From the NCBI GenBank assembly GCA_937981555.1, contig CALJOK010000015.1:62001-126000 (forward strand): a stretch of 64,000 nucleotides of DNA. Reading direction: 5' to 3'. Under the pieces are notes generated by a model. The model was not told the origin of the DNA. It was given only the letters and a program-made list of their open reading frames with translations, and searched no databases. The stretch is from an uncultured Saprospiraceae bacterium (GTDB lineage: Bacteria > Bacteroidota > Bacteroidia > Chitinophagales > Saprospiraceae). Below are positions 27,453-47,421 of this stretch, one piece after another. How positions within the stretch are numbered: the stretch's first letter is position 1; each line of letters opens with the position of its first letter. Position numbers and translations under genes: made by a program.

Positions 27453-29291
27453 ATGAAACAAATCTCAATCCTCTTTTTACTAGTTTTATTTTCTACAACG
27501 CTCTTTTCTCAAAACAAAATCGACCGACTCGAACCTGCCAATTGGTGGATCGGAATGGAACATCAAGACATCCAACTATTAGTCTACGGGAAAAACATTG
27601 CAGACCTAAATCCTAAAATAGAATCACCCCATTTGACTCTCCGACAAGTCATTAAAGTGCAAAATCCCAACTATCTTTTCCTCAACATAACAATAAACAC
27701 ACGTGCGAAAGCAGGAACGATTAATATTGATTTTTATCAAAATAAAACCAAGGTAATCTCCCACCCTTTTCAACTGTTAAATCGAAAAAGAGGTGCTGAC
27801 GAAATAGTTGGTTTCGATGCAAGCGATGCTATTTATTTAATTACTCCTGATCGATTTGTCAATGGAGATCCTTCCAATGATGATGTTGCTGGCATGAAAC
27901 AAAAAGCCAATCGTAGCGATAAAGGCGGAAGACATGGCGGAGATATTCAAGGAATGAAAAACAGTTTAGATTATATCAAAGATTTAGGTTTTACTTCGAT
28001 TTGGTTAAATCCAGTTTTAGAAAATGACATGGAAGTTTATTCTTATCATGGATACTCGACTACTGATTTTTACAAAGTTGATCCTCGATTTGGATCAAAT
28101 GAATCTTACCAAGATTTTGCAGAAACTGCTCGGGCAAAAGGGTTAAAATTAATCATGGATATGATCGTCAATCATTGTGGTTCTTTTCATTGGTGGATGA
28201 ATGATTTGCCATCGGATGACTGGATTAATCAATGGAAAAATTATACGCAGACTAATCACCGAAAAACAGTTTTGCAAGATCCTTATGTTTCTAATTTTGA
28301 TAAAAAACAATTTACGGATGGTTGGTTTGTTCCAACTATGCCAGACTTAAATGTTCGAAATCCGCTGTTTGCAAAGTACCTAATTCAAAACAGTATTTGG
28401 TGGGTAGAATATTTGGGATTATCTGGAATCCGAATGGATACTTATCCATATCCTGACATGGATTTTATGACAGATTGGACGGAAGCAATGATGAAAGAAT
28501 ATCCACATTTAAATATTGTTGGAGAGGAATGGTACGAGCATCCGACAATAGTTTCTTATTGGCAAAAGGGAAAAGATAATCCAAACGGTTATACTTCGGA
28601 ATTAAAAAGTGTGATGGATTTCCCTATTCAAATGTCGATGTCAAAAGCATTGACAGAAGAAGAAAATTGGAAGACAGGTTGGATTGGCGTTTATGAAATG
28701 TTAGCATTGGATTTCCTATATCCTGATCCGATGAACTTGGTGATCTTTCCTGACAATCATGATATGAAACGGATTTTTGCGCAAATGAATGACGACTATG
28801 ATTTGTTTAAACAAGCGATGATTTTTGTAGCGACGATGCGAGGGATTCCACAATATTATTATGGTACAGAAATTTTGATGAGTGGAAGTGATGACCATGG
28901 AATTATTCGAAGTGATTTTCCTGGTGGATGGAAAGGCGATGCGGTGAATGCTTTTACAAACAAAGGTTTAACTGCTCAACAAAAGCAAGCAAAGGATTTT
29001 GTAACAATGCTTTTACAATGGAGAAAAACTGCAACTGCTATTCATAATGGGAAGATGATGCACTTCATTCCACAAGATGGAGTTTATGTTTATTTTAGAT
29101 ATAATGCTGACCAAAAAGTGATGGTTATTTTTAATAAAAACAAAACGGAAACGAGTTTGGATTTAAGTCGATATGCTGAGATGTTGAAAGGAAAAACGAA
29201 GGGGACAGATGTTTTGAACGGAAAGGTTTTTTCTTTGGGAAATAAAATTCAGGTAGCTGGGAATAGTGCGACGATTTTAGATTTGAAATAA
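27453..29291 (+). CDS. susA: SusA-like neopullulanase/cyclomaltodextrinase (GH13)
   Basis: 612 residues. Signal peptide 1-20, then a cyclomaltodextrinase N-terminal beta-sandwich (about 22-110), the GH13 barrel (about 120-520) and a small C-terminal sandwich. Catalytic residues are visible: nucleophile D329 (GIRMDTYP), acid/base E358 (IVGEEW), transition-state Asp D437 (FPDNHDMKR), plus DMIVNH (about 236-241). It should hydrolyse cyclodextrins, pullulan or maltooligosaccharides in the periplasm after import. It converges on the SusF-like gene and completes the starch locus, although it is not in the susCDE transcript. Confidence 0.88.
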   Translation: MKQISILFLLVLFSTTLFSQNKIDRLEPANWWIGMEHQDIQLLVYGKNIADLNPKIESPHLTLRQVIKVQNPNYLFLNITINTRAKAGTINIDFYQNKTKVISHPFQLLNRKRGADEIVGFDASDAIYLITPDRFVNGDPSNDDVAGMKQKANRSDKGGRHGGDIQGMKNSLDYIKDLGFTSIWLNPVLENDMEVYSYHGYSTTDFYKVDPRFGSNESYQDFAETARAKGLKLIMDMIVNHCGSFHWWMNDLPSDDWINQWKNYTQTNHRKTVLQDPYVSNFDKKQFTDGWFVPTMPDLNVRNPLFAKYLIQNSIWWVEYLGLSGIRMDTYPYPDMDFMTDWTEAMMKEYPHLNIVGEEWYEHPTIVSYWQKGKDNPNGYTSELKSVMDFPIQMSMSKALTEEENWKTGWIGVYEMLALDFLYPDPMNLVIFPDNHDMKRIFAQMNDDYDLFKQAMIFVATMRGIPQYYYGTEILMSGSDDHGIIRSDFPGGWKGDAVNAFTNKGLTAQQKQAKDFVTMLLQWRKTATAIHNGKMMHFIPQDGVYVYFRYNADQKVMVIFNKNKTETSLDLSRYAEMLKGKTKGTDVLNGKVFSLGNKIQVAGNSATILDLK

Positions 29292-29405: not shown

Positions 29406-31253
29406 TTATTTCGCTACTGCAAATCTTTTTGAAATCAAGAAACCTTCTCCTTTCATTTGAATCACATAAAAACCTGTTGGGTAATTATTAACATTGAAAG
29501 AAATATTGTTAGCTGATTCATAAGTTCCACTCTGCATTAATTTTCCAGTCATATCGTAAATCAATACTTGAGCTGCACCTTGTAACTCAGCACCTTCGAT
29601 CGTTACATTAACTAAATCAGTTGCTGGGTTAGGAAAGATTTTCACATCATTTACAGAAAATGGATTACTTGTTCCATCCATAATTGAAAATGAATAATCA
29701 CCATTATATTCATGCTCTCCAGCAAATGGATTAGTTGTTTGCAATGACATAAAATAAACTCCATCATTAGGAATCATAAGATTTGGTCCATCTTGAGAAG
29801 CTAATCCTATTGGAAATGTAACTACTGAATCTGGATGTTCTCCACCCCAGTTAGTAGCCCAATCATCATCTTTTCTAAATTTAAATTCACCGGCAGTCAA
29901 TGCTTGAGTTCCTGTCCAAAGTCCAACAACTGTTGCATCTTGAGTCAAATCAGTATCATCATCCCATCCAGCAGTTGGAGATCCAGTTCCGATTGATCCA
30001 ATTGAAGCAGCTGTAAAGCTATAGTCTCCAGTTGTAGAATTAAATGCAATCGTCCATGTTCCTGCAAAGACAGTAATATTCTCACCAGGTATCACAGCTG
30101 AACCTGTTGGAAAACCACCTGGAGCAGTTGCTGCTCCCCAGCTTACATCCCAAGCATCATTAGCTCTAAATTTCAATGGGCCATCTGCAACTGTAATCGT
30201 CAACAACCACTCATCTGAAGCAGTAGCACTTGGGTTTTTATACATATCAATATCATCATCCCATCCACCTACTGCATCACCAATTACTCCAATAGTTGGG
30301 TAATCTACGATAGGATCTTTAAATTCATATAAGCCAGACGTATCATTAAATTCTAATAAATAAGTTCCCATTGGAGCAAAGATATTATTGGCAGAATTAA
30401 ATACAGCTGTATCAATAGGAAAATTTGGAACACCCTCTACACCCCAGTTATAATCCCAAGAACTGTCTCCTCGAAATTTAAACTCACCATTGAAGTCACC
30501 CGTGATCGCCCATTGGTGAACATTGCCATTGATGTTAGACATTGCCATTTCAGAATCCCAAGTTCCAGATGGAGAGCCAGCTCCGATTACACCCATCGTT
30601 GCATAAATAGGAATAAACGATTGAATGTTATACTCACCAGTAGCTGTATTTAGTTCTACCAAGTATTCTCCAGCTGAAGGAATCATGAAGTTACCACCAC
30701 CAGAAGTAGCAGCTATTCCACTTAAACCATCTCCACCATCAGCCCATTCGTCCATCCAAACACCATCAGCACGAAACTTACATTCCCCTGCATTCAAGTC
30801 TAAAGTATCTCGGTAAGTCCACGGTGCATTTGCAACTTGAGTCAAGACAATATCAGTACTCCAGTCAATTCCCGCTTCTCCAATTAAACCAACAGAACCG
30901 TAAATACTATCTTGAAATTCAAAATTGTATTCACCTGTTGCAGAGTTAAACGTTACGTCATAATTTCCTCCAGGTGTAGGAATATCTGCTCCACCTTGCG
31001 TTCCTGTTCCCATTGGAAAATCAGCTGATCCCCAGTTGGTTACCCATGTATTATCTGTACGAAACTTAGAAGATCCATTTTTCAAATCAATATTGATAGT
31101 CCACATATCTGTGTTACCAGCATCGTTCGTCATATTGGTTTGTGCATCCCAACCTAAGTCAGTTGCTGAACCAATAATTCCAAGTGAATCAAATTGCCCA
31201 AATGAAATTGTGGCAAAAAATAAAACTGTAATTGTTAGTAAATTTTTCATCAT
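29406..31253 (-). CDS. SusF-like multimodular starch-binding protein with T9SS type A sorting domain
   Basis: The frame is open upstream to 31403, but the tandem ATGs at 31253 and 31250 start a real signal peptide (MKNLLTITVLFFATISFGQ), giving about 615 residues. Five SusE/SusF-type modules of about 100 residues follow, each starting with a [IV]G.IG.a...GW[DS] strand and containing a KFR.D..W..[ND]WG motif. These are the binding modules of SusE/SusF. It ends in a type A sorting domain (VKIFPNPATDLVNVTI). Unlike classical SusF it has no lipobox and instead should be exported by T9SS. It is the last gene of the susCDE run, after a 172-nt gap. Confidence 0.8.
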   Translation of the reverse strand: MMKNLLTITVLFFATISFGQFDSLGIIGSATDLGWDAQTNMTNDAGNTDMWTINIDLKNGSSKFRTDNTWVTNWGSADFPMGTGTQGGADIPTPGGNYDVTFNSATGEYNFEFQDSIYGSVGLIGEAGIDWSTDIVLTQVANAPWTYRDTLDLNAGECKFRADGVWMDEWADGGDGLSGIAATSGGGNFMIPSAGEYLVELNTATGEYNIQSFIPIYATMGVIGAGSPSGTWDSEMAMSNINGNVHQWAITGDFNGEFKFRGDSSWDYNWGVEGVPNFPIDTAVFNSANNIFAPMGTYLLEFNDTSGLYEFKDPIVDYPTIGVIGDAVGGWDDDIDMYKNPSATASDEWLLTITVADGPLKFRANDAWDVSWGAATAPGGFPTGSAVIPGENITVFAGTWTIAFNSTTGDYSFTAASIGSIGTGSPTAGWDDDTDLTQDATVVGLWTGTQALTAGEFKFRKDDDWATNWGGEHPDSVVTFPIGLASQDGPNLMIPNDGVYFMSLQTTNPFAGEHEYNGDYSFSIMDGTSNPFSVNDVKIFPNPATDLVNVTIEGAELQGAAQVLIYDMTGKLMQSGTYESANNISFNVNNYPTGFYVIQMKGEGFLISKRFAVAK

Positions 31254-31425
31254 ACTTATAGTTTGATTTGTGATTAAAAGTTCTAGTTCGGTACTAGAAT
31301 ATTTTGTAATACTGTTGTTATAAAAATTGCGTTTTGTGTTTATTTTTTTATTTTTTTTTGGGAAAATGGATTTGGTTATCCTTGTAATTTTTTTTTTAAT
31401 CAAATCATTTTTTCCAAAAAGAATA

Positions 31426-32487
31426 TTAGTTCTTAGTCAATTCAAAATAGTAATCCGATACATTCAAGTATATATCAATCGTATAATTTCCTGCCTCTGC
31501 AATCGCAATATCATCTCCGTCATTTTCCAAAGTACCGTTGGCAAAATTATCTCCGAAGTTCAAGTCATCTGAATCATTCGCTCTAAACCGAATATTTCCT
31601 GCAGTCAAGTCTAAGGTGACAGATAATGCTCCTTTTGCTTCATCCCAAACAAAATCAACATCTGTCGAAGTCCCTCCAGCAGTTGCTGATCCTAAAACGC
31701 CCCAGTTGGTTTTCAATTGAGTATACGTAAAAGTATTCAAGTCACAAACCAAAAAATACAACCCCAAACCATCAGGAATCGGAATATCATTTCCTACTCC
31801 ACCTGCATCTAAGATACCATCTATTGGATCAAGATCTCCCCAATTAAAATCCCAACTTAACCCTTGCACGAATTTGTAAACCGCTGCATCTATTCCAAAA
31901 TAAATATAGCCTTCATAAATTTCATCACTTCGTCGAGAATACACCGCATAATTTTCATCAGCAGGATCCCAAGCATTTGGTAATTGATAATCGCCTGGTA
32001 CCGTTAATTTTGGATAAATAACTTCCGCCTGATATGGATTCACTTTGATCGCAACTGCTTCTGAACATAGCTCATCAACTAAATCACTTACTTTAGCACA
32101 AACTCGAACTTCCAATTCATTATCAAAACCAAAAGGAAGTCCTTTGGCCAAAAGAATATTATTTAATTTCCCTTGAGTCAAATTTCCTAAAGACAAATCA
32201 CTTGTCGTACCAAGTGTGATGGCATCTGCAAAATCATTTCCAGCTGCATCTATTTCAAGGCTGTAAGAGATACCTGCATCATATCCGAAATCCGCAGCTG
32301 TCCACGCTGCTCCTGCCAATAATTCATCAGCGGTAGTTTCGTCCAAAGTAAATAAAGTTCCTGCCGATGGAGCAGTCAAAACTGGAACGGCTCCTAATCT
32401 GATTACAGGATCATTTTCTTTTTCTTTACAAGCTGTAAAAAGAACAACTATTGTTAAAATCGAAAGAATATATTTTTTCATTTTCAA
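31426..32487 (-). CDS. susE: SusE-like starch-binding outer membrane lipoprotein
   Basis: 353 residues. Lipoprotein signal with Cys20 (LFTACKEK). Residues about 30-150 match the SusE N-terminal immunoglobulin-like domain (PVLTAPSAGTLFTLDE). Two binding modules follow (about 158-260 and 261-353), the second with GNIRFRANDSDDLNFGD. It is anchored in the outer membrane and holds starch near SusCD. It lies 94 nt after susD. Its two modules closely resemble the pair inserted within the neighbouring SusD, with 48 of 88 positions identical in the second module by hand count. Confidence 0.85.
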   Translation of the reverse strand: MKMKKYILSILTIVVLFTACKEKENDPVIRLGAVPVLTAPSAGTLFTLDETTADELLAGAAWTAADFGYDAGISYSLEIDAAGNDFADAITLGTTSDLSLGNLTQGKLNNILLAKGLPFGFDNELEVRVCAKVSDLVDELCSEAVAIKVNPYQAEVIYPKLTVPGDYQLPNAWDPADENYAVYSRRSDEIYEGYIYFGIDAAVYKFVQGLSWDFNWGDLDPIDGILDAGGVGNDIPIPDGLGLYFLVCDLNTFTYTQLKTNWGVLGSATAGGTSTDVDFVWDEAKGALSVTLDLTAGNIRFRANDSDDLNFGDNFANGTLENDGDDIAIAEAGNYTIDIYLNVSDYYFELTKN

Positions 32488-32581: not shown

Positions 32582-34789
32582 TTAGTATCCAGCGTTTTGT
32601 TCCAAATTCGGATTCGCTCCAATATCCGCAGAAGGAATTGGGAAGTAATTAAACTTAGCGTCAACCGCAGAACCAGTTGCCGTTCCACCCTTGAAATCCC
32701 ACATATAATCATTCGTTGTCAACTGATCAAATCGAACCAAATCAGTTCTTCGATGACATTCCCAATGCAATTCTCTCGCTCTCTCATCTAAGATAAATGG
32801 CAAGTCCAAATCAACCATCGAAATATTTCCAGCATCTTCTCCGTAAGCTCTCATGCGAAGTAAATTTACATAATCAACGGCCGTCGCCATGTCGCCACCA
32901 GAACCACCTCGAAGCACCGCCTCCGCATACATCAAATAGGCATCAGCCAATCTAAACATCGGAAAGTCAATATCTACCCATCGAACATCTGATCCATTTG
33001 AACCATCTCGATTAACATTTTTAAATTTAGTTGGAGGATAACCTTCGGTAAATTCTGAGATTTTTTCAATCACTCTATTCTGTCCATCGACATGAAACAT
33101 CGCTCGACTATCAACGGTACTTGTTTCTATAGAATAAGTATAATCTGGATTATTGATGTACAATACAATCTTATAAGTTCCTGCTGTTGCGATAGAAATG
33201 TCAGCTCCATCTGCTTCTAAAATTGCATCAGCTGCATCATCTCCAAAATTTAAATCCCAAGCATCATTCGCTCTAAACTTAATATTCCCAGGTTGTAAAA
33301 GTGTTGTTATGGACCAAGCACCTTCCACATCATCATAAACCATATCTGTATCTGTAGTCAACCCTCCTGATGTTGCCGTACCGATTAATCCCCATTCTGC
33401 TTTTTCAAATGAATAAGTCAAATTGACTAAATCAACTGTTACTTTATAACCACCTGCATCAGGAATCACAATGTTTGGACTACTGTTTCCTTCATCCAAA
33501 GTTCCATCTGCTCCGGTGTCACCATAGTTAACAGTCAGGTTAGCATTAGGTGTAAACTTAACTTGCGTATTAGCATTTTCAAAATAAACATAGCCTTCGT
33601 AAACATCATTTTCCAAAGGAGATGATAATTTACTTGCATTGGCAAATTGCCATCCAACATAAGAACCTGCTACAAAAATTTCTGGGTAAGTTCCACCAGT
33701 CTGAGGAGCTACGATTTGACCGCCAGCGCCTCCTGCGATAACTGGGAATTTATTAACCAACGCACTTGTTGCACGTGTACCACCCCAACCACTTTCTACG
33801 CCAAATTCTGATGAAACCATATTACCTCCAATTCCTGCTCGAAGAACAAAAGTCATACCTCCCCAAGTCCGTGTAAATTGACCATCAAAAACTACTGGGA
33901 AAATAATTTCATCTGACAAATAATTATCTGCTAAAAATAAGTGTTGATAATTTTCGTCTAAATCATACCCTGAATCAATTACTTTTTGAGTATATGTAAC
34001 TGCGTCGCTGTAAGCATTTTTACCTGCATAAACTTCTGCATTCAAATACAACTTTGACAACAACATCCAAGCTGCTGCTTGATCTGCTCGGGCATATTCA
34101 TTTGTTCGTGGTGCCATTAGATCTCCTTCAATTGCTTTTAATTCTGACTCAATCCAAGTGTACAAATCTGCAGCTTGAATTTGTTCTGGAAAAAATGAAC
34201 CCACTATGTCATCTTCAGTTACAAATGGAACATTTCGGAAATGATCCAAGGCATGCCAGTAACTTAATGCTCTTAAAAATCTTGCTTCTGCTCGGAACGT
34301 TTTGATTTGTCCACGAAGATCTGAATCTACATTTCGGTCATCCAATTTCTCATCAGTCGTCTCTCGCATAAATTCATTACAAACAGAAACTTGATAATAA
34401 ATGCGGCTATAAAATGCGAAAATAAAATTGTCATTCGCATCCCAATCTTGTTCGTGAAAATTATTAATTGTTTGGTCATTCCAACCTACTACCGCTTCAT
34501 CTGTTGGAAATTCTTGGTGGTACCAAAGTGCTCTTAAGTATTGTCCAAACCCTTCGTCAATTCCTTCAATATCTGCTTGACCTGCTGGTCCTTCTTGTCC
34601 TGTGAGGGAAAGTCCTGCATATAATTTTGCTAAAACTTGTTTATAAGCTTCTGGATTTTCGTATGCAGTTGCTGCGGTGATTTGGTTTTCATCTAGAGGG
34701 ACGGTATCCAAATCATTGAAACAAGAAGTGAATGCTATCGCCAACACAGCAAGTAAAAATATTGATTTAGTAGTTATTTTATTTTTCAT
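32582..34789 (-). CDS. susD: SusD/RagB nutrient-binding lipoprotein with two inserted SusE-type modules
   Basis: 735 residues against about 525 for a usual SusD. Lipobox Cys23 (FTSCFND). The TPR-rich SusD core runs from about 40 to 348 (QIKTFRAEARFLRALSYWHA near 161-180) and resumes at about 560 (DSRAMFHVDGQ) through DFPMFRLADAYLMYAEAVLR (608-627) to the C-terminal LEQNAGY. Between VNKF and DSR, where ordinary SusD proteins continue directly, about 210 residues (nt about 33113-33745) form two SusE-like modules. SusD caps SusC and binds the glycan. The insert should add two starch sites to the cap. The reading frame is intact throughout. Confidence 0.88.
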   Translation of the reverse strand: MKNKITTKSIFLLAVLAIAFTSCFNDLDTVPLDENQITAATAYENPEAYKQVLAKLYAGLSLTGQEGPAGQADIEGIDEGFGQYLRALWYHQEFPTDEAVVGWNDQTINNFHEQDWDANDNFIFAFYSRIYYQVSVCNEFMRETTDEKLDDRNVDSDLRGQIKTFRAEARFLRALSYWHALDHFRNVPFVTEDDIVGSFFPEQIQAADLYTWIESELKAIEGDLMAPRTNEYARADQAAAWMLLSKLYLNAEVYAGKNAYSDAVTYTQKVIDSGYDLDENYQHLFLADNYLSDEIIFPVVFDGQFTRTWGGMTFVLRAGIGGNMVSSEFGVESGWGGTRATSALVNKFPVIAGGAGGQIVAPQTGGTYPEIFVAGSYVGWQFANASKLSSPLENDVYEGYVYFENANTQVKFTPNANLTVNYGDTGADGTLDEGNSSPNIVIPDAGGYKVTVDLVNLTYSFEKAEWGLIGTATSGGLTTDTDMVYDDVEGAWSITTLLQPGNIKFRANDAWDLNFGDDAADAILEADGADISIATAGTYKIVLYINNPDYTYSIETSTVDSRAMFHVDGQNRVIEKISEFTEGYPPTKFKNVNRDGSNGSDVRWVDIDFPMFRLADAYLMYAEAVLRGGSGGDMATAVDYVNLLRMRAYGEDAGNISMVDLDLPFILDERARELHWECHRRTDLVRFDQLTTNDYMWDFKGGTATGSAVDAKFNYFPIPSADIGANPNLEQNAGY

Positions 34790-34918: not shown

Positions 34919-37906
34919 CTAGAAATTCGCACTTACCCCAAAAAGAATCGTTCGCGTTCTTGGATAAACATTGTTATCAATTCCATTCGAAAGTTCTGGA
35001 TCAACTCCTGTGTACGGAGTGATAATCAATGGATTTTGCAAAGTCGCAGAAACCGTAATTGATCCTTTGTCTTTGTACACATTGTCAAATTGGTAACTTG
35101 CCGTAATATGATCCAATCTGAAAAAAGAAGCATTTTGCACAAAGTGATCGCTAAAATATTCTGGATTTTCAAATTGAACATCATTGAGATCTGTCAAGGA
35201 ATTTGATAATACATTTGGTCCTAAAAACAATCGACTATAATATGCATTATTCGATAGTACATTATTGTAAACATAATTTCCAGCATTGCCTCTTGCTGCT
35301 GCTGATAAACTAAATTTCTTATAACTTACATTTGTAGTAAATCCAAAAAAGTAATCTGGCGCTGCTTGCTTGAATCGATATTGGTCATCTGGAGAAACTA
35401 CTCCGTCACCATTTCTATCAACATAAAGTCCTTCGATAGGCGCTCCATTTTCTGCATAAACTTGCTCGTAAACAAAAAATGAAAATGCAGGATAACCAAC
35501 TGAATGAACTTGAATATTCGAACCAACTCCTCCTGAAATTCCTCCAACCAAAACACCCTGATAATCAGGATCGTCCGTTGCAGTTAATTTGGTTATTTCA
35601 TTTTTATTTCGAGTAGCGTTCATGCCGAACTCCCAAAGTACATCTTTCGTTTGTATAGGTACAAAATTTAAGGACAACTCAATTCCTCTATTTTCTAAAT
35701 TTCCTACATTTGTTGTAACGAAGTTTGATAAGTTTGTTCCAGCAGGAACAGGAATTCGATTCAACAAGTCTTCTGTTTTTCGAATATAAAATTCTGCTGA
35801 TCCATAAATTCGATCTTTTATGAATCCAAAATCTACTCCTACATTATAAGTCGTCGTCGTTTCCCATTTAATATTTGCATCATATTCTTCAGGCCGAAAA
35901 GTTGGAACAAAAGTATTTCCAAATTGATATTGAGCACTTTCCAATCCTTGCGTATAAACTGGCAGGTAAGCATAATAATCTAATTCTTGATGACTGTCTC
36001 CAATATCTTGTTGACCAGTAACTCCGTAACCTAATCGGAATTTCAACGTGTTGATTTTTCCATCTTTATCATCAATTGCTTTGTAAGCAAAAGCTGCGGC
36101 TGGAAATAATCCCCAACGATTATCTTTTCCAAAACGAGAAGAACCATCTTGTCGCAAAGTAAAAGTGAATAAATATTTGTTTTGCAAAGAATAATTCAAT
36201 CGACCAAAAAGAGATAATAAATAATATTCTCGAGGTTCAATTTTAATCACCGTTTCTGCAGGAGTTCCAGCTACATCTGAGTTCTTAGAAAAATTTTCTA
36301 CGAAGAAATGTTGCCAAGAATATCCGCCCATCAAATCAAATTTACTTTTCCCTACTTCCTTCACGTAGTTCAAATAAAACTCTAACAGTTCATTCTTTTT
36401 CGTTTGATTGTATTCATTATTTGTTCCTCCTCCTGTAATTGGATTGTATGAAAAAGAAGCAATGGTTGGAATTTTAACCGTTCCTTCTCCTTTGGAATAA
36501 TCATATCCTAAATTCAAATTAGCTCTCAAATCTGGAAAAAACCAAAGTCGATAATCCACACTTACATTCGTTACATATCGAGCTACTTTTCCAATATCTT
36601 CTTTCAAATCCAACAATGCCATTGGGTTAGTTGGAGATAGACGATTTGGGTTTTTCAATGAATCCGCGAAGTAGGTAAAGTAACCTCCGTAGGGACTTGC
36701 ATCATCAAGTATAGGTTGAGTTGGATCGAAACCAATTGAATTGCCTATCGCACCACGATCTGCAAATCGGTTCTCTGACCACATTCCTTTGAAGTTAAAA
36801 TTGACTTGTAAAGTATTATCTAAAAATCCTGGAGATAGATTTAGCGAAGCGGTCGTTCTTTGAAATTTATCATTTTTCAAAACACCTGACTTATCCGTGT
36901 AACCAAAAGATGCTCGATAAGGGAGCACATCTGCAATTCCTCCTGACACACTCAAACTATGATCTTGCCCAAATGCTGGTCCGTAAATTTCGTTTTGCCA
37001 ATCCGTATTTGCATTTCCTAACGAAGCAACTTCTGTGCTTCCCTCTCCAAAATTTTCGGTAATTAAATTACGATAAGCATCTGCATCAAAAACATCAACA
37101 GTATTAATAATTTGACTAGAAGAAATATTTCCAGAATAATTCACCATAGCTTTTTTTCCTAACTTTCCTTTTTTAGTCGTTATCAAGATCACTCCATTCG
37201 ACGCTCGACTTCCGTAAATTGCAGTTGCAGAAGCATCTTTTAAAACGGTAAAAGTTTCGATGTCATTTGGATTAATCAAATTCAAGGTATTTCGAGAACC
37301 TGAAATTCCTCCATTATCAATTGGCACTCCATCAATCACAATCAAAGGATCATTCGAAGCATTCAAAGATGATCCACCTCGGATCCGAATGACTGCCCCA
37401 TCTCCAGGTGCACCACTATTTGTAGTAATATTAACACCCGCAATTTTTCCAGCCAATAATTCTTGAGGAGAGGTAATGGAACCTTTATTAAATACCTTTT
37501 GATCAACCGTTTGGATTGAACCTGTCGCATCTTCTTTTTTAGTTGTTCCATATCCGATGACTATCACTTCATCTAAAAATGAACCTGAACTCATCTCAAT
37601 ATTTATAATATTAGATACTCCGATAGTAATAGTTTGAGTGGCAAACCCTGTGTAGCTAAACACTAAATTAGTTGCTCCTACTGGAACTTCAATAGCATAG
37701 GTTCCATCAATATCTGTAGTTGTTCCAACATCAGTTCCTTCCACTAAAACATTTGCTCCAATTAAAGTTTCTCCATTTTCAGAATCGGTCAATACACCTG
37801 TGATGGTTCGTTGCGCATAGGTAGAAAACCCTAGCATCAGAAAAGTCAAAAAAAGAAGTACTCCTTTTTTGGGAAGATAGATTTTAAGTTTCATATAGTT
37901 TCGCAT
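34919..37906 (-). CDS. susC: SusC/RagA TonB-dependent outer membrane transporter
   Basis: 995 residues. Signal peptide within 1-32 (a second possible start is Met5 at 37894). A carboxypeptidase-regulatory-like domain (about 33-110, ITGVLTDSENGETLIGANVL) precedes the plug with the SusC marks VIGYGTTKKEDATGSI and VIRIRGGSSLNASNDPLIVI (about 168-190). The barrel ends in LFGVSANF. With SusD it imports maltooligosaccharides across the outer membrane using TonB energy. It is the first gene of the minus-strand run susC-susD-susE-SusF-like. The glycan is assigned to starch from the neighbouring GH13 enzymes and SusE modules. Confidence 0.93.
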   Translation of the reverse strand: MRNYMKLKIYLPKKGVLLFLTFLMLGFSTYAQRTITGVLTDSENGETLIGANVLVEGTDVGTTTDIDGTYAIEVPVGATNLVFSYTGFATQTITIGVSNIINIEMSSGSFLDEVIVIGYGTTKKEDATGSIQTVDQKVFNKGSITSPQELLAGKIAGVNITTNSGAPGDGAVIRIRGGSSLNASNDPLIVIDGVPIDNGGISGSRNTLNLINPNDIETFTVLKDASATAIYGSRASNGVILITTKKGKLGKKAMVNYSGNISSSQIINTVDVFDADAYRNLITENFGEGSTEVASLGNANTDWQNEIYGPAFGQDHSLSVSGGIADVLPYRASFGYTDKSGVLKNDKFQRTTASLNLSPGFLDNTLQVNFNFKGMWSENRFADRGAIGNSIGFDPTQPILDDASPYGGYFTYFADSLKNPNRLSPTNPMALLDLKEDIGKVARYVTNVSVDYRLWFFPDLRANLNLGYDYSKGEGTVKIPTIASFSYNPITGGGTNNEYNQTKKNELLEFYLNYVKEVGKSKFDLMGGYSWQHFFVENFSKNSDVAGTPAETVIKIEPREYYLLSLFGRLNYSLQNKYLFTFTLRQDGSSRFGKDNRWGLFPAAAFAYKAIDDKDGKINTLKFRLGYGVTGQQDIGDSHQELDYYAYLPVYTQGLESAQYQFGNTFVPTFRPEEYDANIKWETTTTYNVGVDFGFIKDRIYGSAEFYIRKTEDLLNRIPVPAGTNLSNFVTTNVGNLENRGIELSLNFVPIQTKDVLWEFGMNATRNKNEITKLTATDDPDYQGVLVGGISGGVGSNIQVHSVGYPAFSFFVYEQVYAENGAPIEGLYVDRNGDGVVSPDDQYRFKQAAPDYFFGFTTNVSYKKFSLSAAARGNAGNYVYNNVLSNNAYYSRLFLGPNVLSNSLTDLNDVQFENPEYFSDHFVQNASFFRLDHITASYQFDNVYKDKGSITVSATLQNPLIITPYTGVDPELSNGIDNNVYPRTRTILFGVSANF

Positions 37907-38368: not shown

Positions 38369-41300
38369 ATGAAAAATTCCTATTTACTGATTCTATTCTC
38401 TTTTCTTTCTTTTTTTTCTACGGCACAAATGGTCACCCTCTCTCCTTCAAACGCAGGAGCAGATGATAACGCTGTTTTGATTTTTGATGCGACCGAAGGA
38501 AATGGTGAATTGATTGGAGCGAGCAAAGTTTACCTTCATCATGGTGTAATTACTGATGGGCCAACAAGTACCAATTGGCAATATGTAATTGGTAATTGGG
38601 GAAATGATGATGGCATTGGAGAAATGACTCTTGTAGCTGGTGAGACTGATAAATGGCAAATTGATTTTACCCCTTCCATTCGAGACTATTATGGAGTCCC
38701 TGCAAATGAAGATATTTTTAGATTGTCTCTCGTTTTTAGAAGTGCGGATGGAAATGCCAAAGCCACTTTGGCTCCTGGAAGTTATGGTTGGGGAACAGTT
38801 GCTCCTAATTTGGATATTTATTTTAATCTAAATTCAGGTGATTATGTTACGATTAATTCTCCTGCTGGCAATAGTGAATTTTTATCATCAGGTCAACCTA
38901 TTTCGATTTCAGGATCGGCTTCCAATGAAGTTTCTTCGATGAAAATTTGGGTGGATGAAGGAAGTGGTTTTGAAGAAAAAGCAAGTGTGACATCTGGAAC
39001 ATCTATCAATCATACTTATGTTCCTTCAGCAAGTGGATTGATCCAAATAAAAATTACAGCGACCATTAATGGTTTTGATTTTGAAACGGAAAAAGATTAT
39101 GCCGTTACTATTTTGCAACCAGTTGTCGTCGAAGATTTACCTGCTAATGTAAAAGCTGGAATTAATTACGATCCAACTGATGCGAGCAAAGTAACTTTAG
39201 TTTTAGAAGCGCCTAATAAAGATTTTGTTTTTGTAGTTGGAGATTTCAATAATTGGGTGGCGCTTGATGATTATCAAATGAAAAAAACACCCAATGGCCA
39301 ATACTTTTGGTTGGAGCTATCTGGGTTGACACCTAATCAACCTTATGTTTTTCAATACTGGGTGGAAGAAGATGTGAAGGTAGGTGATCCTTATGCTGAG
39401 CAAACTGCTGACCCTTGGAATGACCAATGGATTAGTGCTGCCACTTTTCCCAATATTCCTTTTTATGACAAAACAGATTATGGTTTTGCCTCCGTTTTGG
39501 AAACTGGACAAGCAGCTTACACTTGGGCACCTTCGGAAGATACTTGGGAACGTCCTGATGTGAATCATATGGTAATTTATGAATTGTTGGTGCGTGATTT
39601 TATTGGAACTCACTCTTGGGAAGACTTGCAAGATTCCTTGGCATACATTGCTAATTTGGGAGTGGACGCGATTGAAATTTTGCCTTGGGGTGAATTTGAA
39701 GGAAATGAATCTTGGGGATATAATCCAGCTTATTATTTTGCCACAGATAAATATTATGGCACCAAAGAAGACCTTAAACAATTTATCGAAGTAGCTCATC
39801 AAAATGGTTTGGCGGTCATTATGGACGTAGTGATGAATCATGCATTTGGTCAAAATCCAATGGTCAAAATGTACTTCGATCAAGGAGCAGGAACTCCTGC
39901 AAGTGACAATCCTTGGTTCAATAAAGATTATGTTGGACAATACCAATGGGGTTATGATTGGAATCATGAGTCACCTTACACCATTGAATTTTTAGATCGA
40001 TTAAATAAATTTTGGATTGAAGAATTTCATGTAGATGGTTACCGATTTGATTTTACCAAAGGGTTTACTAATTCTGCTCCAGGCGGTACTGTCGATGGAT
40101 TTGATCAATCGAGAATTGATATTTTGAAAAGAATGGTTGACGAAATTTGGGATGTAGATCCTGAATGTTATATAATTTTAGAACATTGGGCACCGAGCAA
40201 TGAGGAGGCGATTTTAGGAGATTATGGAATGAAGATGTGGAAAAATAAAAGTTATGATTTTGTTCCTGCAACAGTTGGAAATATTACGGGGAGCTTTGGT
40301 GGAATGAATTCTCAGGATCATGTTACCTTTTATAACAGTCATGATGAAAGACGAATCGCAGAACATTGTTTGACCGAAGGTTTCTCAAATGGATCTTATG
40401 ATATCAAAAATCCATTGGTCATGTTTGAAAGAGTAAAAATGGCAGCAGCTTTTGCTTTCTTAAATCCTGGACCAAAAATGTTATGGCAATTTGATGAATT
40501 AGGATATGACATTGACATTGATTTTAATGGTCGAACTGGCAACAAACCTTTGCCTTGGGGGCCTGATGGATTAGGTTATTATGAGGATCCTTTGCGTCAA
40601 TATATTTATGATAGTTACCAAGGAATCCTAGATGTAAGAAATACGATTGGAGCAGATACTTTAGCTTTTGCACAAACGAATCATAAAACAAGTGGAACAA
40701 CTCGACGGTTAGTTTACAATAGTTTTGGTCAAATAGATTTAGTCATTCTTGGAAACTTTGGTTTAGGCGAAGAATCTATTATTCCAAATTTCCCATCAAG
40801 TGGAAAGTGGTACGATTACTTCTCAGGCGATAGTATCGATGTGGCGCTCACTTCTGACATGATTAACTTGAAAGCTGGTGAGTGGCATATTTATACGGAT
40901 AAAAAATTATCCAATGGTTTACCAGGAGTAGTAGCTGTTTATGAAAATCCAGTAACGATCTCACCTGATCCATTTACCAAAAATGATCAAATCACAATTA
41001 CCTTCGATGCTAAAAAAGCATTTCCAAATGGAACAGTTGGATTGGTTAACTCGGAAAAAGTGTATATGCATTCCGGTGTAATCCTATCTGACCCTGCAAG
41101 TACGACACTTGAAAATGTAGTCGGAACTTTTGCTGATGATGGCGTTGGTGAAATGACGGAAGTCAGTCCTGACATTTGGGAAATTACTTTAACTGTCGCA
41201 GATTATTATTCACTTGATTCAAATGATGAGCCTTTTAAAATCGGAATGTATTTCAGAGATGCGGACAATGTTAATCTTGGGATGGGTTTTCGAGATGGCG

Positions 41301-42028
41301 TTATTTTTTATAATGTAGAATCAGATCAACCGTTCATCACCGTTGAACCTGCCTCCTACACTATCGATGATGAGATCACAGTTACCTTCAATGCAAAAAA
41401 AGGAAATGGGGAATTAGTTAATGCAGACAAAATTTACATGCACAGTAGTGTTGGTCTAATTGAAACAACAGCACCTCAAAATAATGCGTGGGGAAATGTA
41501 ATTGGAAACTGGGGACAAGATGATGGAGTTGGAGAAATGACTGAAATTACCAACAGTCCTGATCTTTGGGAAATTACTTTGACGCCAAAAGATTACTATG
41601 GATTGACAAATGGAGATTTGGTTTATTGGTTAGCAGCAGTTTTCAGAAGTACAGATGGAAACACCAAAGGTACGGGGCAACCTGGTTCTATTTTAAATGG
41701 GTTCATTCATACGAATCAAGACTTTTTTATCCAAAATCAAATTACTGTTTCTGATAAAAATGTTGATTTTAAAAATCAAGAAGTTGCCATTTTCCCAAAT
41801 CCAGCACAATCGCAAGTGAATATTCTAATGAAAAATATTTCTGGAAATGTTCGATTGGAATTGTATGATTTGATGGGAAAAATGGTTTTGGTAGAAAATG
41901 TAAACGTCAATGGATTAGATGAATATATTCATTCTTTGGAAATAGGCAATGTACCAAATGGAATGTATTTTATAAAAATCGTTGGTGATAATTTATTGAT
42001 TACTAAGGAGTTGGCCAAAACAAAATAA
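38369..42028 (+). CDS. Large secreted GH13 alpha-amylase with triplicated accessory module and T9SS type A sorting domain
   Basis: 1219 residues. Signal peptide 1-19. Accessory module A (about 21-155), an Ig-like domain (160-250), a CBM48-like N-domain (about 262-350, FVVGDFNNW), then the GH13 barrel (about 395-770) with nucleophile D561 (GYRFDFTKG), acid/base E605 (IILEHWAP) and D659 (FYNSHDERR). Two more copies of module A follow (about 865-985 and 990-1120), each with a K[VI]Y[LM]H strand and a DDGxGEMT motif. The end is a sorting domain (VAIFPNPAQSQVNIL). It should cut starch outside the cell, the role SusG has in Bacteroides, but exported through T9SS. It is divergent from susC. Confidence 0.9.
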   Translation: MKNSYLLILFSFLSFFSTAQMVTLSPSNAGADDNAVLIFDATEGNGELIGASKVYLHHGVITDGPTSTNWQYVIGNWGNDDGIGEMTLVAGETDKWQIDFTPSIRDYYGVPANEDIFRLSLVFRSADGNAKATLAPGSYGWGTVAPNLDIYFNLNSGDYVTINSPAGNSEFLSSGQPISISGSASNEVSSMKIWVDEGSGFEEKASVTSGTSINHTYVPSASGLIQIKITATINGFDFETEKDYAVTILQPVVVEDLPANVKAGINYDPTDASKVTLVLEAPNKDFVFVVGDFNNWVALDDYQMKKTPNGQYFWLELSGLTPNQPYVFQYWVEEDVKVGDPYAEQTADPWNDQWISAATFPNIPFYDKTDYGFASVLETGQAAYTWAPSEDTWERPDVNHMVIYELLVRDFIGTHSWEDLQDSLAYIANLGVDAIEILPWGEFEGNESWGYNPAYYFATDKYYGTKEDLKQFIEVAHQNGLAVIMDVVMNHAFGQNPMVKMYFDQGAGTPASDNPWFNKDYVGQYQWGYDWNHESPYTIEFLDRLNKFWIEEFHVDGYRFDFTKGFTNSAPGGTVDGFDQSRIDILKRMVDEIWDVDPECYIILEHWAPSNEEAILGDYGMKMWKNKSYDFVPATVGNITGSFGGMNSQDHVTFYNSHDERRIAEHCLTEGFSNGSYDIKNPLVMFERVKMAAAFAFLNPGPKMLWQFDELGYDIDIDFNGRTGNKPLPWGPDGLGYYEDPLRQYIYDSYQGILDVRNTIGADTLAFAQTNHKTSGTTRRLVYNSFGQIDLVILGNFGLGEESIIPNFPSSGKWYDYFSGDSIDVALTSDMINLKAGEWHIYTDKKLSNGLPGVVAVYENPVTISPDPFTKNDQITITFDAKKAFPNGTVGLVNSEKVYMHSGVILSDPASTTLENVVGTFADDGVGEMTEVSPDIWEITLTVADYYSLDSNDEPFKIGMYFRDADNVNLGMGFRDGVIFYNVESDQPFITVEPASYTIDDEITVTFNAKKGNGELVNADKIYMHSSVGLIETTAPQNNAWGNVIGNWGQDDGVGEMTEITNSPDLWEITLTPKDYYGLTNGDLVYWLAAVFRSTDGNTKGTGQPGSILNGFIHTNQDFFIQNQITVSDKNVDFKNQEVAIFPNPAQSQVNILMKNISGNVRLELYDLMGKMVLVENVNVNGLDEYIHSLEIGNVPNGMYFIKIVGDNLLITKELAKTK

Positions 42029-43652: not shown

Positions 43653-46184
43653 TTAGAATGGGCAACTTGCACATTCGTCTACTTTCGTATCAAGGTTTTC
43701 TTTTGAAAGTGCTTCACCAGTTGCACAACTAACACATCCGATTACTCGGAATTCAGTTCGTCGATTCATTTGATGTTCTCTTTCTGAACATGGAATTTGA
43801 TTAGCACAGTTGTTTACATTTTTCTTCTCACCATATCCTCTTGCTACTAATCTTTCTTCCGCAATTCCACAATCCATCAATGCTCGAACTACAGATTCTG
43901 CTCTTCTTTGAGAAAGACTTCTGTTATATCTAAATGAACCTCTTGAATCAGTATGTGATGCAATCTCAATAATCAAATCAGGATTTTCAGTCATCATTTT
44001 ACACAACTTATTAACCTCTGGTTGAGCCTCATCCCTTAAATATGATTGATCAAAATCATAGTAGATGTGAAGTAAGTATGCATAGTATCCTTCCTCTCCT
44101 GGTTCAGTTGGAGATTGTTCCCATGTTGGACTTGATCCTCCATCTTTAATTTGTCCATCCTCATATGCGATCCCACGTACAGTTCCTGTTATTGGTTCAC
44201 CACTATTAGGATCAACATATAATCCAGTTTCAGCATCGTACTTTGGTGTATTTGAATCATCTCCTGCTACAGGGTCTCCAGTAAAAGGATCTTCTCCATA
44301 ATTTGGATCTTCTCCATAAGTTGGATCACCTCCATTAGGGTCAACATCTACAACTGGAGCAGAAATCGGACTTAAATTAACCACAGCCTGCAAAGTAGTC
44401 GGCTCAGTCAAATCACGAGTACATTGATTTTCTACAGGACTTCCAAAGTAACCTTCTTTCTTCGCTGTGACGGTGTAACAACAATCTTCTATCAATTCAA
44501 ATGAAAGTGTTCCTGTTGAATCGGTGTAAACAGCTTCAGGTTCGGTACCTTCACAATCGTTTGTTAAAGTAACCATTGCTCCTTCAATTGGATTACCCGT
44601 TGTTGGATCAACTACAAGTACATCTAAATTAAATAGTACTTCTTTTTTCAACGGAATTTCAACAAAAACTTTTTGTCCCATGTCTACACTTTTAGTACAA
44701 CCTTCTTTTGCGTTGTCTAAATATTCATCCATGCTTGCCGTGAAATTACAGCATTGATCCATTTTCATATCGAACATGATTTTTCCATCTGCATTCGTCA
44801 ACATTTCTGTTCCGGTGCAATCATTCATAACTGTTGCTCCTGGAATTGGATCACCTGTTGCTTCATCAATCACAAGGATTTCCATAGTAGCAGCAGATTT
44901 TCTAAAAGCGTAAATATCATCACGCCCTACTCCACCTTCTCGATCAGAAGTAAAATATCCTTCTTTACCTTCTTCACCGAAAATAATTCCGAAGTCATCA
45001 GAAATAGTATTTAATGGATATCCCATATTGGTAACATCACCAAATTGATCTTCACCTTTGTCATCCATGTAGTAGATATCTAATCCACCTAAACCAACAT
45101 GTCCATTAGATCCGAAATATAATCTTTCGCTATTACTATCGTAATAAGGAAAAATCTCACTTCCTTCTGTATTAATTTTTGCACCAAGATTAATTGGTGG
45201 TCCCCAGCTGCTTCCATCCATTGTTGTCATGTACAAATCCATTCCTCCAAAACCACCAGGCATGTCAGATGAAAAATACATTTTACTTCCATCAGCAGTC
45301 AAAGTTGGGTGAGCAACTGAATACTCATCAGAATTAAAAGGTAAGCCTTCTAAATCTTTCCACTCATCACCGTCAATCGTAGCAGAGAAAACTTTCAAAC
45401 GGATAATTCCATCATCATCTTTTCCTACTTTTCCATTCATAATATTATTTCTAGTGAAATAAATTTTTGATTGGTCTTTATTATAAGTTACTGCAGCATC
45501 GTGAAATTTAGAATTCAATTTCTTAGAATACTTTTCAGGTTTTTCATACGTATACTCTGCAGGTTCTTTTCCTTCCTTTTGTCTTTTCACTTGAAATAAT
45601 TCATTGAAAGGATTACCTGTCCATTCAGTTGTACGAACTACAGCTATTCCTTTATCACGCTCTGATGCGAATACTAATCCATCATCATAATAAGCTGGAC
45701 TGAAATCATCCAAGTTAGAATTGAAATCAACATGTACTATTTCATAGATACCTGCATTTTTTGTTCGCAATTCATCTTCGTAATCGCAAGCTTGTACTAA
45801 GTACTGCCCACGTTGATCTTCAGGAACTGCATCAACATAAGCTTGATACCATTCTTTTGCCAAGTCGCATTTTCCATTCCGTTGGAGCATTTGACCATAA
45901 TATAATTTGTGAATTGGTTCAGCATCTTCTAGCTGAACAACTTGGCCATACCAATATTCTGCATTCTCTGAGTCATTGACTTTTCGATAAGCCTCTGCAA
46001 TATTAATTTTGGCTTCAGGATTGTCGTTCTTATCGAGGATTTGATTGTACAATTCAATGGCTCCCATATAGTTGAGATCCTCCATGTACTTTCTCGCTCT
46101 TTTCTCTTTGGAAAGTTGAGCAAATGCGCTGCTTGAAGCTATCATACAAATTAGCAAAGCTAAAATCACCTTCTGTTTTATCAT
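43653..46184 (-). CDS. PorE-like OmpA family protein: TPR, PD40 propeller, CRD domains, OmpA domain
   Basis: 843 residues. Signal peptide 1-22, TPR region (about 25-150, AEYWYGQVVQLEDAEPIHKL), PD40-type beta-propeller (about 160-425, ADGSKMYFSSDMPGGFGGMD), two carboxypeptidase-regulatory-like domains (about 430-520 and 525-610), a Gly/Asp/Pro linker (DPNYGEDPFTGDP), and an OmpA C-terminal domain (about 700-815, IEIASHTDSRGS, NRSLSQRRAESV). This order matches PorE, the peptidoglycan-anchoring T9SS component of Porphyromonas. It ends in a Cys-rich tail. It follows a PorP gene and a type B cargo gene on the same strand, the usual accessory T9SS cluster. PorE itself versus a paralogue cannot be settled here. 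Confidence 0.82.
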   Translation of the reverse strand: MIKQKVILALLICMIASSSAFAQLSKEKRARKYMEDLNYMGAIELYNQILDKNDNPEAKINIAEAYRKVNDSENAEYWYGQVVQLEDAEPIHKLYYGQMLQRNGKCDLAKEWYQAYVDAVPEDQRGQYLVQACDYEDELRTKNAGIYEIVHVDFNSNLDDFSPAYYDDGLVFASERDKGIAVVRTTEWTGNPFNELFQVKRQKEGKEPAEYTYEKPEKYSKKLNSKFHDAAVTYNKDQSKIYFTRNNIMNGKVGKDDDGIIRLKVFSATIDGDEWKDLEGLPFNSDEYSVAHPTLTADGSKMYFSSDMPGGFGGMDLYMTTMDGSSWGPPINLGAKINTEGSEIFPYYDSNSERLYFGSNGHVGLGGLDIYYMDDKGEDQFGDVTNMGYPLNTISDDFGIIFGEEGKEGYFTSDREGGVGRDDIYAFRKSAATMEILVIDEATGDPIPGATVMNDCTGTEMLTNADGKIMFDMKMDQCCNFTASMDEYLDNAKEGCTKSVDMGQKVFVEIPLKKEVLFNLDVLVVDPTTGNPIEGAMVTLTNDCEGTEPEAVYTDSTGTLSFELIEDCCYTVTAKKEGYFGSPVENQCTRDLTEPTTLQAVVNLSPISAPVVDVDPNGGDPTYGEDPNYGEDPFTGDPVAGDDSNTPKYDAETGLYVDPNSGEPITGTVRGIAYEDGQIKDGGSSPTWEQSPTEPGEEGYYAYLLHIYYDFDQSYLRDEAQPEVNKLCKMMTENPDLIIEIASHTDSRGSFRYNRSLSQRRAESVVRALMDCGIAEERLVARGYGEKKNVNNCANQIPCSEREHQMNRRTEFRVIGCVSCATGEALSKENLDTKVDECASCPF

Positions 46185-46410: not shown

Positions 46411-47421
46411 CTAAAAGTAACGCGGAGTTACAATCTGTTTCGTTTTATAGTTAAACTCATATCCTAACATAATTTCAAATGATCCTTTGGCAGGACTTTG
46501 CAATTTTGTTAAAGAATAATCATATGCTGCTCCAATTCTTAATCCATTTGTCAAATAATAAGCTGCCCAAAGGTCAACTGAGTCAAATGAACTAGTATCA
46601 TTAAATGCTTCAATCGCTGTTCTGAAAGATGCTCCTATCCAAAGTGCTTCATAAAATAAAAATGATAAATCAATATCAATTTCAGTAGGTGCCCCAATTT
46701 CTTGGAAAGCTTCATCTTTGCTAAATTTACTCAACAACCCAACATTTTTAATCAACATAGATGGTTTGAAAATAATCATATCTCCTTTGATTGGAATCGC
46801 TGCTCCAATCGAACCAAAATAGTGTCTATATTGTCTTGCCCAAATATCAGTAGTTGCTTCTTCTCTCAAATCATACTCAATTAAGTGTGGACTAGAAAAT
46901 CCGATATAAAAATTTCGAGTATAATAATATATCCCAGCTCCAAAGTTCGGTAACCAGTAACTTGGCTGTTGCTCCAAAAATGCCTCATCAACAGTTGCAT
47001 TTTGATTAGCCAAAGTTATTTTTGAAAAATCTGCTCTCCAATTTGTTACTCCACCTTGCAATCCAACTGCTAACTTTCCACGTCCACCGTTACCCATAGG
47101 TATTCGATAAGCATAGCTAAAGTTTGCACCCATTTGTTGTGAAGGTCCAATAACATCATTGTAAGCACTAAATCCAACACCTACTCTCTTATTTTTTAGA
47201 GGAGTATGTATCGTAAAAGTTTGAGTAACCGGTGCGCCATCTATGCCCCACCATTGGTTTCTGTAAAGTAACCCAATTGCTAAGTGATCTTTCGCACCTG
47301 CATATGCTGGATTATAATGTAAACTGTTAAACATATACTTTGTAAACATTGGATCTTGCTGTGAAAAAGCAGAATGTCCAAAAAAACAAACAAAGCACAA
47401 GAGAGTAAATATTTTTCTCAT
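46411..47421 (-). CDS. PorP/SprF family type IX secretion outer membrane protein
   Basis: 336 residues. Signal peptide 1-20, then the family start QQDPMFTKYMFNSLHYNPAY (about 21-40) and YRNQWWGIDGAPVTQTFTIH (about 53-72), followed by an outer membrane barrel. PorP/SprF proteins are needed for secretion or surface attachment of particular T9SS type B cargos such as SprB. The gene is between a type B cargo (upstream) and the PorE-like gene (downstream), which supports this one being dedicated to that cargo. Confidence 0.92.
   Translation of the reverse strand: MRKIFTLLCFVCFFGHSAFSQQDPMFTKYMFNSLHYNPAYAGAKDHLAIGLLYRNQWWGIDGAPVTQTFTIHTPLKNKRVGVGFSAYNDVIGPSQQMGANFSYAYRIPMGNGGRGKLAVGLQGGVTNWRADFSKITLANQNATVDEAFLEQQPSYWLPNFGAGIYYYTRNFYIGFSSPHLIEYDLREEATTDIWARQYRHYFGSIGAAIPIKGDMIIFKPSMLIKNVGLLSKFSKDEAFQEIGAPTEIDIDLSFLFYEALWIGASFRTAIEAFNDTSSFDSVDLWAAYYLTNGLRIGAAYDYSLTKLQSPAKGSFEIMLGYEFNYKTKQIVTPRYF

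Follow-up and report, generated by a model that had tools for sequence, protein, structure and literature searches.

The SusD protein encoded in the window, a 64,000-nucleotide stretch of DNA from an uncultured Saprospiraceae bacterium (contig CALJOK010000015.1, positions 62,001 to 126,000), carries two SusE-type (X25) modules inside its core, as residues 349-559. This block probably came into use as a lid-mounted arm for alpha-glucan sharing its work with SusE, and would have turned structural later, in a clade where no susE was found. The homology, predicted fold, position, age and spread of the insert, the failure to find susE in that clade and the decay of the putative glucan-binding signature were all computed. 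The genes for SusC, SusD, SusE and a SusF-like protein follow one another in this order, with two GH13 genes flanking them, and the features of the locus are the following.

27453-29291, plus strand: GH13 cyclomaltodextrinase/neopullulanase-type enzyme (domain match)
29406-31403, minus strand: SusF-like protein, five SusE-type modules, ending in a type IX secretion tail (start codon uncertain)
31426-32487, minus strand: susE, 353 aa, with a PF14292 N-terminal domain (residues 24-129), module 1 (M1, 158-261) and module 2 (M2, 262-351)
31435-31704, minus strand: SusE M2, signature decayed, with T, R and D at the positions of W477, K504 and W511
31705-32016, minus strand: SusE M1, W-K-W signature intact
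32582-34789, minus strand: susD, 735 aa including the inserted block (PF07980, E 1.7e-32; PF14322, E 7.5e-8)
32582-33112, minus strand: SusD core part 2, residues 560-735 and stop (Pfam; phmmer)
33113-33745, minus strand: inserted block, SusD residues 349-559 (BLASTP against SusE; predicted fold)
33125-33394, minus strand: insert M2, residues 466-555, with K504, R506, N508 and W511 present and L replacing W477
33395-33688, minus strand: insert M1, residues 368-465, with W380 and K411 present and L replacing W418
33746-34789, minus strand: SusD core part 1, residues 1-348, including D78, R86, W103, W309 and W335 (phmmer against 3ck7 and 3jys; conservation)
33785-33787, minus strand: codon of W335, the equivalent of W320 of Bacteroides thetaiotaomicron SusD (phmmer alignment; invariant in 64 aligned rows)
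34919-37906, minus strand: susC, 995 aa (TIGR04056, 738 bits)
38369-42028, plus strand: GH13 alpha-amylase-type protein carrying a type IX secretion tail, oriented divergently to susC

Assignment of the window SusD to the SusD/RagB family is supported by both Pfam domains (PF07980 with 113.7 bits and PF14322 with 33.3 bits, above the curated cut-offs of 23.1 and 27, respectively) and by the predicted SusD fold. With NF033071, the NCBIfam exception model for starch SusD, it scored 425 bits, below the curated cut-off of 725, and is therefore not filed under that model. The core is interrupted between VNKF (ending at residue 348) and DSRAMF (starting at residue 560) by 211 extra residues; the NCBIfam SusD profile and the phmmer alignments with solved SusDs stop at residue 348, and phmmer resumes at residue 559. 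An earlier note on this DNA had placed the block exactly there, at 33113-33745 between VNKF and DSR of a SusD of about 735 residues, and its description of the block as two SusE-type modules aligning with the adjacent susE proved correct as well. By BLASTP, the block matches the last two modules of the neighbouring SusE with 84 of 198 positions identical (42%, E 5e-43), and the SusF-like protein with 29% identity (E 2e-14). The second modules of insert and SusE share 48 of 89 aligned positions (48 of 88 had been counted by hand). M1 of the insert pairs with M1 of SusE and M2 with M2, and this common order makes capture from SusE the best origin of the block. PF14292 (59.2 bits in the neighbouring SusE) was not detected in SusD at E values up to 1.

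Modelled alone, the insert is predicted to form two beta-sandwiches (pLDDT 90.4). In structural comparisons with VIA (Foldseek was also run), this model matched SusF 4fe9 (Z 12.5, rmsd 5.0 over 173), SusE 4fch (Z 11.8, rmsd 5.1 over 174) and the X25 domain of Sca5, 7rpy (Z 10.8, rmsd 2.6 over 93), so that the X25 fold is found in the predicted model against all three references. The sequence of the insert alone retrieved no match from the PDB at E values up to 10, and a profile built from the insert and SusEs matched SusE 4fem. The model of the whole SusD (pLDDT 90.6) places its core close to 3jys (Z 51.5) and 3ck9 (Z 48.4, rmsd 1.8 over 465) (VIA; Foldseek). These results confirm that residues 349-559 are two SusE-type modules. 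Chance similarity is ruled out by the E value of 5e-43 to SusE. An assembly artefact or chimera is likewise ruled out, the two-module block being present in 69 of 140 classified loci (window included), namely at the same place in genome G003 (88% identical) and in 67 more fetched loci, and the GC content of the insert (0.384) being that of the rest of susD (0.385).

The insertion point lies after residue 348, 13 residues past W335. This Trp aligns with chain position 296 of B. thetaiotaomicron SusD 3ck7, whose own numbering is the chain position plus 24 (chain position 526 is residue 550), and W335 therefore equals W320, which we take to be a starch-contacting Trp. The starch site of that protein presumably consists of D73, R81, W98, Y296 and W320, with D78, R86, W103, W309 and W335 as counterparts in the window SusD. 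W335 is kept, and position W309 is aromatic, in 69 of 69 two-module loci. The earlier note had regarded the VNKF/DSR junction as normally continuous; it is in fact a loop of variable length, with 3-18 aa in the 53 fetched insert-free SusDs, 13 aa in 3jys and 45 aa in 3ck7. In two loci of family f5 (L051 and L146) the same loop is occupied by an unrelated 139-aa domain, with no Pfam match in the one scanned (L051), which indicates that the loop accepts different domains.

The distribution of the insert was followed in four genome samples, with family code f1 taken as Saprospiraceae. Among the 398 f1 genomes, 192 had a SusD match at E <= 1e-70; the match spans the insert in at least 116 of them and ends inside it in two more (G180 and G403). 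Insert-spanning matches in the order sample (396 genomes) all belonged to f1, among the matches listed. The class sample (395 genomes) added two genomes of another family, f23 (G657 and G739), and the phylum sample (395 genomes) eight f110 genomes, from another class, with a longer SusD and a match reaching the first module. For closer comparison 140 stretches were fetched in addition to the window, and 140 of the 141 SusDs were classified, L147 being left out at a contig end; these are chosen loci, and the counts are not frequencies. The loop holds two modules in 69 loci (f1 and f23), module 1 only in eight (all f110) and module 2 only in three (L152 in f1; L153 and L154 in f75), while 53 loci lack an insert. 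The remaining seven are other long SusDs: in L051 and L146 the loop is occupied by the unrelated domain, and L148-L150 and L163-L164 appear, as judged by eye, to be longer elsewhere.

In a quick tree of the SusD core (139 rows, insert left out), 68 two-module rows fell into one group (starred support of 96), together with two insert-free rows of genus g17, L046 and L167; the f23 row sits among f1 rows. In both g17 loci the loop is down to 4 aa and no module-bearing SusE was seen alongside. Their insert-free state is best read as a later loss.

SusE was called where a protein shorter than 480 aa and bearing SusE-type modules lay no more than 400 bases downstream of SusD. On this definition it stands beside SusD in 26 of the 69 two-module loci and not in the other 43; in two of the latter (L111 and L121) a five-module SusF-like gene stands downstream instead. 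The 43 SusE-less loci form one clade of the core tree (starred support of 99), corresponding to one change on the tree, and all 43 rows retain the two-module insert. At least 1.3 kb downstream of SusD was covered in 40 of the 43, the sequence ending after 475 (L099), 143 (L134) and 636 bases (L141) in the others. A genome-wide search located PF14292 beside SusD in 15 of 15 tested genomes that keep SusE; none of the 43 SusE-less genomes, some of which are incomplete (down to 65%), had it at that place. Two of the 43 had weak matches on other contigs (G273, 25.2 bits, at the cut-off and in a 2745-aa frame; G263, 23.2 bits, below it), and of 14 named genomes searched as a control one matched, a Bacteroides. 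The original susE thus appears to have since been lost in this 43-species clade. A gene with four or more modules was present in the fetched stretch of 35 of the 43 SusE-less and six of the 26 SusE-keeping loci, and GH13 genes near SusD in 19 of 43 and 8 of 26, respectively, by the weak criterion of BLAST with the two window enzymes.

The putative glucan-binding signature comprises, in SusD numbering, W380, K411 and W418 of M1 and W477, K504, R506, N508 and W511 of M2, and rests on resemblance to SusE, SusF and Sca5. In the profile alignment W380 pairs with a Trp and K411 with a Lys of B. thetaiotaomicron SusE, the Trp being W192, presumably a starch-binding residue. The X25 modules of Sas20 are described as having paired Trp that are conserved with SusF (PMC9112005). 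The W-K-W of M1 was found in 46 of 46 M1 modules from SusE-length proteins, in six of the eight f110 inserts and in 9 of 24 M1-type modules from the large SusE-like proteins that adjoin insert-free SusDs, and is therefore not universal even among likely binders; the insert of L090 (genome G088), at a SusE-keeping locus, has the full signature. As for the window, insert M1 reads W, K, L and insert M2 reads L, K, W; with one Trp missing in each, its putative sites may be weak. The two glucan sites whose addition to the transporter the earlier note had suggested stand only in part: M1 lacks the second Trp (L418) and keeps W380 and K411, M2 lacks one (L477) and keeps K504-R-N-W511, and most of the signature has disappeared from the inserts of the SusE-less clade.

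Among the two-module inserts, M1 W-K-W is kept in 20 of 26 at SusE-keeping loci and in 0 of 43 at SusE-less loci (Fisher p 2e-12, kinship ignored), and the K/R plus W of M2 in 25 of 26 and 19 of 43, respectively (p 6e-6), with six or more changes of M2 inside the SusE-less clade. On the tree susE was lost once, so that a single independent instance stands behind the link between this loss and signature decay. The decay, with loss in M1 of 43 of 43 and in M2 of 24 of 43 SusE-less inserts whose modules are nevertheless kept at low finite dN/dS, is what would be expected if the insert had been structural throughout, serving to brace or dock SusC, the amylase or the SusF-like protein, with glucan binding incidental or lost; we regard this as a minority possibility, against which stands the retention of the signature in most inserts of SusE-keeping loci. 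Values of dN/dS for insert modules in 12 species pairs, most with large or saturated dS, were finite in 13 of 24 cases and ranged from 0.012 to 0.201, seven of them from the SusE-less clade. These low values suggest purifying selection, so that selection probably acts on the inserts even after loss of the signature.

Two further readings of the SusE-less clade were considered. The insert as a replacement glucan binder there is contradicted by the M1 signature, which 43 of 43 inserts have lost. That starch is no longer the substrate, as the cause of the decay, is unlikely, as the SusD starch site is intact (D78, R86, W103 and D105 in 43 of 43 SusE-less and 25 of 26 SusE-keeping loci, the 26th being truncated there) and SusF-like modules keep K/R plus W in 166 of 175 cases at SusE-less loci (31 of 31 at SusE-keeping ones).

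In the window, SusE and the SusD insert appear to complement each other. Among the SusE-keeping loci, M2 of the SusEs beside inserts retains K/R plus W in 21 of 26, and insert M1 is decayed in four of the five loci with a decayed SusE M2 versus 2 of 21 others (Fisher p 0.005, kinship ignored). The four loci with this reciprocal decay (window, L038, L089 and L120, of 26), three of which are close kin, suggest that SusE and the SusD insert share one set of putative sites; in the window, SusE would keep the M1 site and the insert most of the M2 site.

The reading that we favour, a lid-mounted arm that became structural later in one clade, can be laid out as follows. In the ancestor of a mainly Saprospiraceae SusD lineage, the last two X25 modules of SusE would have been copied as a block into SusD, entering a length-tolerant loop 13 residues past the starch-contacting Trp; the block would fold by itself, leaving the SusD core and its starch site intact. 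Glucan binding, the place of the insert on the assembled transporter and the division of labour are what we infer beyond this. In SusE-keeping lineages the insert would most likely be an alpha-glucan-holding arm on the lid, its glucan sites shared with the separate SusE, and would pass chains on to the SusD site and to SusC. In the pedal-bin model SusD is the lid of SusC (PMC7782687). A module pair beside the lid's starch site would hold an alpha-glucan chain at the entrance and follow the lid as it moves. In the later clade, susE would have been lost and the insert retained while most of its signature decayed; there its role is probably structural or docking, and glucan capture may have moved to the multi-module SusF-like protein.

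A wider reading, to which we give somewhat less than even credence, sees this SusD loop as a capture site for surface-glycan-binding modules, with about three captures from SusE across lineages of the phylum, after which one 43-species clade lost susE and its captured glucan sites decayed while the fold stayed under selection. The trees point to three likely captures in the same loop: the two-module one, that of M1 in f110, and a single M2 including f75. In a careful M1 tree of 49 rows, the f110 SusD modules form a clade (100/99) within a group holding f110 SusE M1 (98/98) and apart from the Saprospiraceae inserts, with a bootstrap that had not settled and one very long row. The three single-M2 inserts fall together with the modules of SusEs that have three of them (99/94), closest to the first module (88/97, not starred), and their own unity as one event has a support of 46/65. 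The f110 and f75 captures are thus probably independent of the two-module one. One early capture in the phylum followed by loss of one or both modules would account for the use of the same loop every time, and forcing the sampled SusD M1 inserts into one clade, at a cost of 28 log units, leaves an AU p of 0.079, short of rejection at 0.05; the affinities of the f110 and single-M2 inserts to their respective SusE modules argue against it, and we consider this history rather unlikely.

The age of the two-module capture follows from similar comparisons. In a careful module-pair tree of 47 rows, one branch (92/86) has the 20 SusD inserts together on one side and a second (91/75) likewise the 20 SusEs from their loci, and joining the window and G003 inserts with their SusEs was rejected (AU p 0.00054). 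In a quick tree of 134 rows, joining the window insert with the window SusE gave p 0.127, the inserts requiring two changes, not one; in a tree of M1 only (104 columns) the Saprospiraceae inserts were not cleanly separated from SusEs (four changes). The grouping of the inserts and their spread over genera indicate an old capture, made before these genera spread.

Neutral decoration of an insertion-tolerant loop, with the modules merely riding along, is improbable: the unrelated domain in the f5 loop and the seeming loss of the insert in genus g17 would fit it, yet module dN/dS is low where measurable, the insert is present in every SusE-less row, and neither frequent decay to stubs nor neutral dN/dS was seen in the pairs and loci examined. 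A recent transfer from the neighbouring susE within this lineage is very improbable, since in spite of the 42% identity to the adjacent SusE and the lack of formal rejection in the 134-row tree, the insert-spanning match recurs in at least 116 of 192 f1 genomes and the 20 insert pairs hold together apart from their SusEs (p 0.0005 in the careful tree). Of the transfer from susE into susD that the earlier note had proposed, the origin therefore stands and the recency does not. As support for a recent event it had named insert modules that branch with the neighbouring SusE, and they group with other SusD inserts (p 0.0005 with 47 rows, 0.127 with 134); it had also named, as the sign of an old family feature, SusDs of other lineages with the same insert and modules branching apart from their own SusE, which is what was found in other genera.

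Compared with characterized systems, B. thetaiotaomicron SusD (3ck7, 3ck9) has the same core fold and starch-site residues, with its own 45-aa loop where the window SusD has two X25 modules. SusE and SusF of that species (4fch, 4fem, 4fe9) contain the same tandem X25 modules (Z 11.7-12.5) and are separate lipoproteins, whereas the window pair lies inside SusD, without the N-terminal PF14292 domain. Sca5/Sas20 of Ruminococcus bromii (7rpy) has the same X25 module (Z 10.8 over 93 residues) in an amylosome scaffold context without SusD, and its tandem pair is described as holding maltotriose between the modules (PMC9112005). The levan and dextran utilisomes also have a surface glycan-binding protein close to SusCD (PMC7618045); there a separate lipoprotein docks on SusC, unlike the covalent insertion in the window SusD. 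According to the same source, the predicted starch SusC shows no additional interaction surface relative to its levan and dextran counterparts, and SusE, SusF and SusG are therefore unlikely all to bind one SusCD (PMC7618045). No description of a SusD with inserted SusE or CBM modules was found in the literature searched, which mostly leaves aside subscription titles; the component families are known, but their arrangement and its repeated occurrence appear to be new, as does the SusE-less clade.

These loci represent a natural construct series of lid-fused SusE modules with or without the signature and with or without a separate SusE, suited to the question whether surface glycan-binding proteins act by sugar binding, by right placement or by both, and they bear on the placement of SusE and SusF relative to the starch transporter SusCD. 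If the loop is indeed a capture site, the essential part of SusE would be a permanent physical place on the transporter, not sugar binding.

Several minor observations concern the same gene families. The single-M2 SusD of L152 (G382, f1; 3-1937) has a core sister to the f75 SusD L191 and looks like a horizontal transfer; G382 also has a second SusD match, which spans a two-module insert. In L050, L054, L055, L165 and L173 the insert-free SusD has beside it another kind of SusE-like protein, with five modules in 617-628 aa. SusF-like proteins with five to eight SusE-type modules are encoded in the window (29406-31403), L042 (11248-13035) and L044 (11189-13855); those of the window and L042 end in a type IX secretion tail and are thus probably exported by that route and not lipoproteins. 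At 46411-47421 of the window, a PorP/SprF-type protein adjoins an OmpA/PD40 protein (43653-46184), probably type IX secretion accessory genes.
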